Part shown: positions 21,123 through 49,059 of the stretch, in pieces
Layout: each line of letters opens with the position of its first letter
Numbering within the stretch: position 1 is the stretch's first letter
DNA from: a virus
Direction: 5' to 3' (one strand)
DNA length: 64,000 bases
IMG/VR virus record: IMGVR_UViG_3300047678_000160
Location: 1 to 64,000 of that record
Translations under genes and position numbers: made by a program
Notes under the pieces: generated by a model
What the model saw: the letters and a program-made list of their open reading frames with translations, nothing else
What the model was told of the DNA's origin: nothing
The model's database searches: none

Positions 21123-21867
21123 ATGAAAACTAGCAACATACACACAGACCGTATCAACGCGGGCAACCCATCGGGAGGCTCTTTTAGCGTTTGGGGGAGT
21201 CTTTGAGGCTCGTGGTGTTCTTGTTGAAGTAATTTCAGGAGAAGGTGGAGACGATTCTAAGTTGTTCGCTGAACAACTTTTTACAGCCTATTTGGCTTAC
21301 ATGGATAGAAATGGTCTTGAGGCTGAATTGGAAGAAACTGGGCCGACCAAGTATAGTTTCGTGTGTGAAGATTTAAAGGCAGAATCTCTGTTTGAAGGAG
21401 AATCTGGATGTCACTGTGTTCAACGTATTCCAAAGAACGACAGAGGAGGGCGCAAACACACTTCTTATGTAGCTGTAGTTGTTACTAGACTTCACTCTCA
21501 AAATACAGACATGAAAGAAACTGACTTGGAAGAGTCGTTTCAGAGAGGACATGGTAATGGTGGACAACACCAAAACAAAACCTCTAGTGCTGTTCGATTA
21601 AAGCACAAGCCAAGTGGACTTGATGTATTCATAAATGGACGAAGCCAACAGAGCAATAGACGAATTGCTCGCATTTGTTTGGCCGGCAAATTGTCTGAAC
21701 TTGTAAAGAATGGTAAAAGTCAATCGACCTTCGCCGGGGCTGGCCGAGGTGATAAAATAAGAACTTACAATTTAGCTGACCATAGAATTACCGACCACCA
21801 AACGGGAGCGAAGTGTCATATGCCGGATTCCATTATGAAATCGGGAAGGTTTGAATTACTCAAGTAA
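21123..21867 (+). CDS. Class I peptide chain release factor with in-frame TGA and +1 frameshift site
   Basis: Frame 0 from ATG 21123 gives 27 codons ending ...SFSVWGSL, then TGA at 21204. Skipping one base (T21204) enters the frame that encodes EARGVLVEVISGEGGDDSKL and on to the stop at 21867, for 247 residues. Domain 2 looks RF1-like (GESGCHCVQRIPKNDRGGRK), with PKN (about 103-105) where RF1 has PxT and RF2 has SPF. The catalytic GGQ is in GHGNGGQHQNKTSS (about 146-148). Domain 1, used for RF3 interaction, is missing, so it is shorter than host factors. The frameshift mimics prfB autoregulation: a shortage of UGA release raises synthesis. A T-run error (TTT for TT) is the alternative. Confidence 0.8.
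21193..21207 (+). promoter_or_regulatory. prfB-type +1 recoding site
   Basis: GGGGG, then AGT, then CTT TGA G. The purine SD-like run sits 3 nt before CTT as in bacterial prfB, and the preceding peptide ends GSL as in Bacillus RF2. Located at codons 24-28, close to the site after 24-25 codons in host prfB genes. Confidence 0.75.
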
Positions 21868-48985: not shown

Positions 48986-49059
48986 GCGTTTGTAGCTCAA
49001 TGGCTGAGCAGTCGTCTCTAAAACGATGGATGTGGGTTCGAGTCCCATCTGACGCACCA
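48986..49059 (+). tRNA. tRNA with anticodon CUA (amber suppressor)
   Basis: 74 nt including encoded CCA. Acceptor GCGTTTG/CTGACGC (one T-T mismatch, one G-U), D-stem GCTC/GAGC, anticodon stem GTCGT/ACGAT closing a 7-nt loop CTCTAAA, T-stem GTGGG/CCCAT with loop TTCGAGT. U33 is present and positions 34-36 read CTA, so it should decode UAG. The D-loop is one nt short. Amino acid identity is not deducible by eye. TTGACA lies at 48937, but with only a weak -10. Confidence 0.85.

Follow-up and report, generated by a model that had tools for sequence, protein, structure and literature searches.

A phage gene for an RF1-like release factor without domain 1, probably gated by +1 programmed ribosomal frameshifting

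Frameshifting in the gene of release factor (RF) 2, prfB, is the textbook example of a gene that gauges its own product, and to our knowledge this device was thought to be confined to bacterial prfB with UGA. Here we describe a release factor gene in a 64,000-nucleotide stretch of viral DNA (positions 1 to 64,000 of the 95,728-base IMG/VR virus record IMGVR_UViG_3300047678_000160; hereafter the window), in which a short leader is closed by UGA and the release factor continues in the +1 frame. The initial annotation of this DNA had proposed a prfB-type +1 signal on a phage release factor, and this proposal is supported by the site itself, its conservation in close relatives and its recurrence throughout a family of phage genes. 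Judged from sequence, the gene probably encodes an RF1-like class I release factor that lacks domain 1, with +1 programmed ribosomal frameshifting as the gate on its synthesis, so that the gene would act as a sensor of termination capacity.

The closest described system is the site of bacterial prfB (AGGGGG-UAU-CUU-UGA-C), which resembles the window site in its Shine-Dalgarno (SD)-like run, 3-base spacer, CUU_U slip site, early in-frame stop, weak +4 context and release factor in the +1 frame. The leader has 27 codons in the window and 25 in E. coli prfB. Unlike prfB, the gene is viral and encodes an RF1-like product without domain 1, and among its relatives there are also UAG and UAA gates, tandem gates and sites that fall within the PCRF domain. 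In a prfB survey of 12,753 genomes, of which 8,164 had the shift, UAG was found in no prfB motif and no programmed shift was found in prfA (PMC12421855). For RF2 genes, read-through of an early in-frame UGA is not known, and the same passage on read-through gives the UAG/RF1 counterpart as unknown (PMC5009743). The CUU-stop +1 cases in RECODE are all prfB (PMC10885494).

Among viruses, the class I release factor of Mimivirus and Megavirus is a conceptual precedent, being a viral release factor whose reading frame is broken by recoded stops, in some cases by two (PMC3521657). It uses frameshifting and read-through that were experimentally verified, whereas the phage gene is known here from sequence; it is also of eukaryotic/archaeal type, belongs to an amoeba virus and is unrelated to the phage family. 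PrfH is, like the phage protein, a bacterial-type class I factor with GGQ and without domain 1, but it does not recognise stops in the normal way and is paired with RtcB (PMC1586002, PMC6514570), while the phage family keeps RF1-type recognition. Phage-encoded RF1/RF2 homologues, as here, were described in huge phages, in a paper from which the word frameshift is absent (PMC7162821), and some of the relatives lie in large uncultured-phage records (LR7565xx). In contrast to the gated family without domain 1, the Lak-A2 phage has a full-length, RF2-like gene in one continuous frame. An earlier account of gated phage RF1-like genes was not found in the open PMC subset and may exist elsewhere.

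Shift site and product of the window gene

The features of the gene are listed in Table 1. As the initial annotation had read it, CTT TGA follows the 27 codons that begin at ATG 21123-21125 (MKTSNIHTDRINAGNPSGGSFSVWGSL), GGGGG lies 3 nucleotides upstream, and the release factor is encoded in the +1 frame; the AGT spacer occupies 21198-21200 and the CTT codon 21201-21203. The window thus has all parts of a prfB-type cassette, namely the SD-like run 3 bases before CTT_T, the in-frame stop and the +1 open reading frame (ORF), and its gating stop is UGA, which is replaced by UAG or UAA at 27/92 sites of the family. The sequence GGGGGNNNCTTTGA was found once in the window, against 0.01 occurrences expected from shuffles. 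No significant RNA structure was detected at the shift site. The same annotation had matched the GSL peptide to host RF2; this was not confirmed in a comparison with E. coli RF2, which has RGYL there.

Table 1. Coordinates of the release factor gene and its putative frameshift gate in the window
Feature	Position	Strand	Remark
Zero-frame leader ORF (ATG, 27 codons, in-frame UGA)	21123..21206	+	Layout also in L002 (77%) and L043
Leader block CGGGCAACCCATCGGGAGGCTCT, 23 bases	21160..21182	+	Identical in window and L002
GGGGG, SD-like putative stimulator, 3 bases 5' of CTT	21193..21197	+	Anti-SD pairing raised at family sites
CTT_T, predicted slippery sequence (tRNA-Leu from CUU to UUU)	21201..21204	+	CTT at 91/92 family frameshift sites
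UGA gating stop, next base G (family: usually C)	21204..21206	+	
Release factor frame (+1): PCRF without domain 1, then RF-1	21205..21867	+	TAA 21865-21867
PKN tripeptide (codon recognition), at RF1 PAT position	21430..21438	+	
GGQ catalytic motif	21559..21567	+	GGQ in 113/113 relatives, which were selected for GGQ

Pfam matches of the +1 frame to RF-1 (E 2.8e-19) and to PCRF (E 9.9e-19) both pass the cut-offs, and the protein has PCRF, RF-1 and GGQ, as expected for the superfamily of class I bacterial release factors. Since the PCRF match starts in the middle of the profile (position 80 of 194) and is followed by RF-1, the protein is a release factor without domain 1, and it therefore lacks the four-domain build of RF1. 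Both this and the RF1-like character with PKN agree with what had been noted before. From the known role of domain 1, its absence suggests that the factor would be independent of RF3.

The NCBIfam prfA models scored best on the window protein (152 and 141 bits), below their cut-offs of 400 and 423, while prfB gave 119 bits against a cut-off of 370 and the protein has PKN instead of SPF. Its nearest solved structures by sequence are RF1 proteins, and an AlphaFold model made from 24 family members (predicted local distance difference test score 86) matches RF1 and RF2 structures, with a template modelling score of about 0.8 (by query length) to their compact forms. Over aligned columns the window protein is about equally distant from E. 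coli RF1 and RF2 (0.28 each); the 113/113 relatives are listed closer to E. coli RF1 than to RF2, the window only by a hair.

At the positions of E. coli RF1 185, 188-190, 197 and 198, the window protein has Q, PKN, H and T, and the family mostly Q, PPT, H or Q, and T. Gln185 is kept in 109/113 relatives and Thr190 in 97/113, while His197 is replaced by Gln in 47/113; the tripeptide departs from PxT in the window (PKN) and in some relatives (PPN). By sequence, the recognition surface of the window protein is RF1-like. A PxT tripeptide confers UAA/UAG specificity, and with such a surface UAA/UAG specificity would be the default expectation for the window protein, the codon specificity of the phage factor being a prediction.

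The site is conserved in close relatives, for which the initial annotation had proposed a check of GGGGG-NNN-CTTTGA: it is kept in the 77-78% relative and in L043, and the close relatives are not continuous. A protein of the L002 type, 77-78% identical to the window release factor, occurs in six IMG/VR contigs, all with the ATG, the leader, GGGGGTCACTTTGAC and the same +1 continuation, and the site is identical among the six. L043, 62-63% identical to the window release factor, has CTGGAGTCGCTTTGAC at the corresponding place. Between the window and L002, third positions of codons with conserved amino acids are 45% identical, near saturation, while GGGGG, CTTTGA and the 23-base leader block are all unchanged. 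The unchanged block, set against the near-saturated third positions downstream, may possibly reflect a dual-frame or nascent-peptide constraint.

Gate classes in the phage family

The family was assembled by profile searches and INPHARED matches, with the best 80 of 488 IMG/VR relatives taken in, and comprised 113 distinct genes after removal of duplicates, mostly on phage contigs of up to 735 kb. Ribosome paths were traced from start codons, allowing +1 shifts or stop read-through, and the products were scored with the family hidden Markov model (HMM); L002, L027 and L112 were reassigned by hand on review of the path calls. After tracing and review, 85/113 relatives need a +1 shift, at 92 sites: 59 have a single UGA (including one GTT site), 17 a single UAG, 2 a single UAA and 7 a tandem gate. 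The tandem gates are UGA, UGA in L030 and L119, UAG, UAG in L035 and L032, UAA, UGA in L008, UAG, UGA in L027 and UAA, UAG in L110.

The consensus of the 92 sites is near CGGAGGTGT-CTT-TGA-C. The codon before the stop is CTT at all but one of them (GTT), under path scoring that favoured CTT sites, whereas CTT plus a stop ends 14/854 ordinary genes (1.6%) in the same loci (binomial p near 1e-161, shared ancestry ignored). When the tracing was rerun without the CTT preference and with ATG starts only, 75 single-site CTT genes were still obtained; the genes lost had mainly leader and tandem sites, beyond what the family HMM can score. The +4 base is C at 64/92 sites (70%), and anti-SD pairing averages 5.3 contiguous pairs at the sites compared with 3.6 in random windows. 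UGA is the gating stop at 65 sites, UAG at 23 and UAA at 4. The sites lie in leaders (32) or within the PCRF domain (60), and 54/60 of the latter fall on the column of E. coli RF1 Trp144, the rest at 132, 136, 149 and 162. In this in-domain class the stop met by the ribosome is not freely chosen, because the start is fixed by homology. Among the 113 relatives, the gating stop showed no visible association with the tripeptide or residue 197.

In a tree, the phage proteins are separate from E. coli RF1 and RF2 (Shimodaira-Hasegawa-like approximate likelihood ratio test 97); the references were these two E. coli sequences only. Single UAG gating changes about 16 times on this tree, with at least 7 changes forced by well-supported branches, and the gate itself therefore looks selected.

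A blind scan with CGGAGGKGTCTTTAGC gave 31 matches, of which 6 are RF genes and 4 of those new; as the other matches are mainly a few repeated sequences, the motif by itself is not specific. Many INPHARED matches under the names of Listeria, Staphylococcus or faecal phages seem to be contaminating host RF genes and were excluded. What is called 'RF1' in Pseudomonas phage PHB09 is a different protein, of 158 amino acids, with GGM for GGQ and no codon-recognition domain. L041 and L044 are possible PrfH-like proteins on viral contigs, of a separate type without domain 1 and continuous in one frame.

A further 24/113 relatives carry in-frame stops (23 UGA, 1 UAG) with apparent read-through, a reading that is supported less strongly than that of the frameshift class. 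Eight of the in-frame UGAs sit on the Trp144 column, where read-through by tRNA-Trp would restore the residue of E. coli RF1, and the others are spread over several further columns. Global stop reassignment was rejected as the cause for most members and is possible in some. Most of the contigs use TGA as an ordinary stop in the flanks, their RF genes keep TGG for other Trp, and in AT-rich members ORFs are about equally long under codes 11 and 4. Some members have no TGA stop in the flank, and special hosts or partial reassignment are possible for some; L121, with an in-frame TAG, may use code 15. L009-L012, L139 and L208 have one or two in-frame UGAs on contigs that do not look globally recoded and are candidates for programmed UGA read-through.

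Phage context

The window encodes a T4-like tail tube gp19, baseplate proteins, tail sheath, DnaB, ribonucleotide reductase and rIIA, and this gene set marks it as a myovirus-like phage. The 44 virus records examined and LR756511 contain a single RF-1-domain gene apiece, so stray copies of host prfA or prfB cannot account for these genes. Of 49 records searched, 11 had a large-terminase domain, 2 of them under the curated cut-off. The RF genes often lie within tRNA arrays; in L040, a phage transfer-messenger RNA (854-1236) adjoins the recoded RF gene, with 20 tRNAs.

Among window genes of at least 120 amino acids, the best SD match before the start is 3 bases or fewer in 41/51, no more than random, and since SD enrichment is missing, a Bacteroidota-like host is suggested. 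In Bacteroidia that make no use of SDs for initiation, prfB frameshifting is nevertheless retained (PMC8710568), so an SD-like stimulator in an SD-poor phage is no contradiction.

The window also contains a tRNA with anticodon CTA (48986-49059, + strand), of the amber suppressor type and pyrrolysine-specific according to ARAGORN, and TAG is the terminator of 1/63 window ORFs. L110, which has UAG among its RF gates, also carries a CTA tRNA. An RNA ligase gene (PF09414; 19106-20137, - strand) lies near the release factor gene and possibly serves RNA repair. RtcB was absent in a Pfam scan of ten nearby window proteins.

Proposed gate, alternatives and meaning

The proposed mechanism is modelled on prfB, where slow termination at the gating stop leads to slippage (PMC5009743, PMC12421855). 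The ribosome would read the 27 codons and meet UGA while peptidyl-tRNA-Leu occupies CUU in the P site. Fast termination would release a dead-end peptide, while slow stop decoding would leave time for GGGGG to pair with the 3' end of 16S rRNA and for tRNA-Leu to re-pair on UUU, after which the +1 frame would be read through to a full-length release factor. By this analogy we infer the slippage, its dependence on termination capacity and peptide release by the product. The gene would then be both sensor and effector, topping up release factor whenever termination runs short of capacity, as might happen when phage translation is heavy or host factors are lost. The same logic would have been built repeatedly in large phages with UGA, UAG or UAA, sometimes with two gates in series, and a subset of relatives would apparently use in-frame UGA read-through as the gate. 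The initial annotation's sensing of UGA-termination capacity fits the window copy, where we infer it, and is too narrow for a family that also uses UAG and UAA.

Several observations weigh against this account. The product is RF1-like, so a UGA gate would answer to host RF2 and not to its own product; the +4 base in the window is G and not the favoured C; the window leader ATG has no SD, as is the case for most genes of the same phage; and 4/113 relatives are continuous and ungated (L029, L136, L188, L205), so the gate is dispensable in some phages.

The alternative that survives best, though we regard it as tentative, is true autoregulation, in which the phage factor terminates at its own gating stop as bacterial RF2 does. 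At UAG gates an RF1-like product would make this direct. A UGA gate would sense host RF2 unless the product reads UGA too, so autoregulation there requires a relaxed or omnipotent product, which PKN or PPT, together with the missing domain 1, might allow. Gating stops switch often while the protein stays alike, as if one product served several stops, and PKN in the window, PPN in relatives and the frequent Gln at position 197 depart from the usual residues; but Gln185 and PxT are of RF1 type, and the gating stop follows neither the tripeptide nor residue 197. With its RF1-type decoding residues the product may be unable to read UGA, so strict autoregulation is only a possibility.

Ribosome rescue of the PrfH type, in which the protein would free ribosomes damaged or stalled in infection or host defence and stop stalling on them would boost frameshifting, appears unlikely. 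PrfH likewise lacks domain 1 (PMC6514570) and has a weak presence among the fold matches, and the RNA ligase gene stands just upstream on the other strand. However, the window protein scores 56 bits against the NCBIfam release_prfH cut-off of 166.65 bits, is nearer to RF1 and keeps the stop-codon recognition residues, and damage to the 16S 3' end would be expected to weaken SD-driven frameshifting.

Entry into the +1 frame by non-standard or internal initiation, with CTTTGA incidental, is far less probable still. The frame is open back to 21127, with ATT at 21232 and TTG at 21262, and some relatives have an in-frame GTG or TTG near the PCRF start. Against this, no ATG, GTG or TTG occurs in the window +1 frame 5' of TTG 21262, which is already within the conserved PCRF domain, and the 60 in-domain sites of the family split this domain over two frames, so that a downstream start would lose it. 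The records are metagenomic and the window species is known from one of them, which might point to a sequencing or assembly error or to a pseudogene in decay. This is ruled out by the identical site in all six contigs of the 77-78% relative and by conservation in the family: the 1-base offset at CTT_T recurs in 85 distinct genes with intact GGQ, and third positions have diverged while 77% of residues were kept.

In conclusion, about three quarters of the phage release factor genes collected here share the frameshift device of RF2, UAG, UAA and tandem gates included, and the family offers a candidate for the missing UAG/RF1 case. That UGA, UAG and UAA often replace one another suggests that selection favours a stop gate of whatever kind. 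With some reserve, we favour the broader view that large phages repeatedly evolved a generalised termination-capacity sensor with gates of every form, be it UGA, UAG or UAA, two gates in series, +1 slippage or in-frame UGA read-through. Among these would be the RF1 counterpart that RF2 autoregulation has so far lacked, and possibly three-stop factors. Many natural variants of the classic frameshift site are now at hand, and standard annotation probably cuts gated release factor genes short or overlooks them. The recurrence of the gate in this family suggests that control by termination capacity is under strong and repeated selection in phages.
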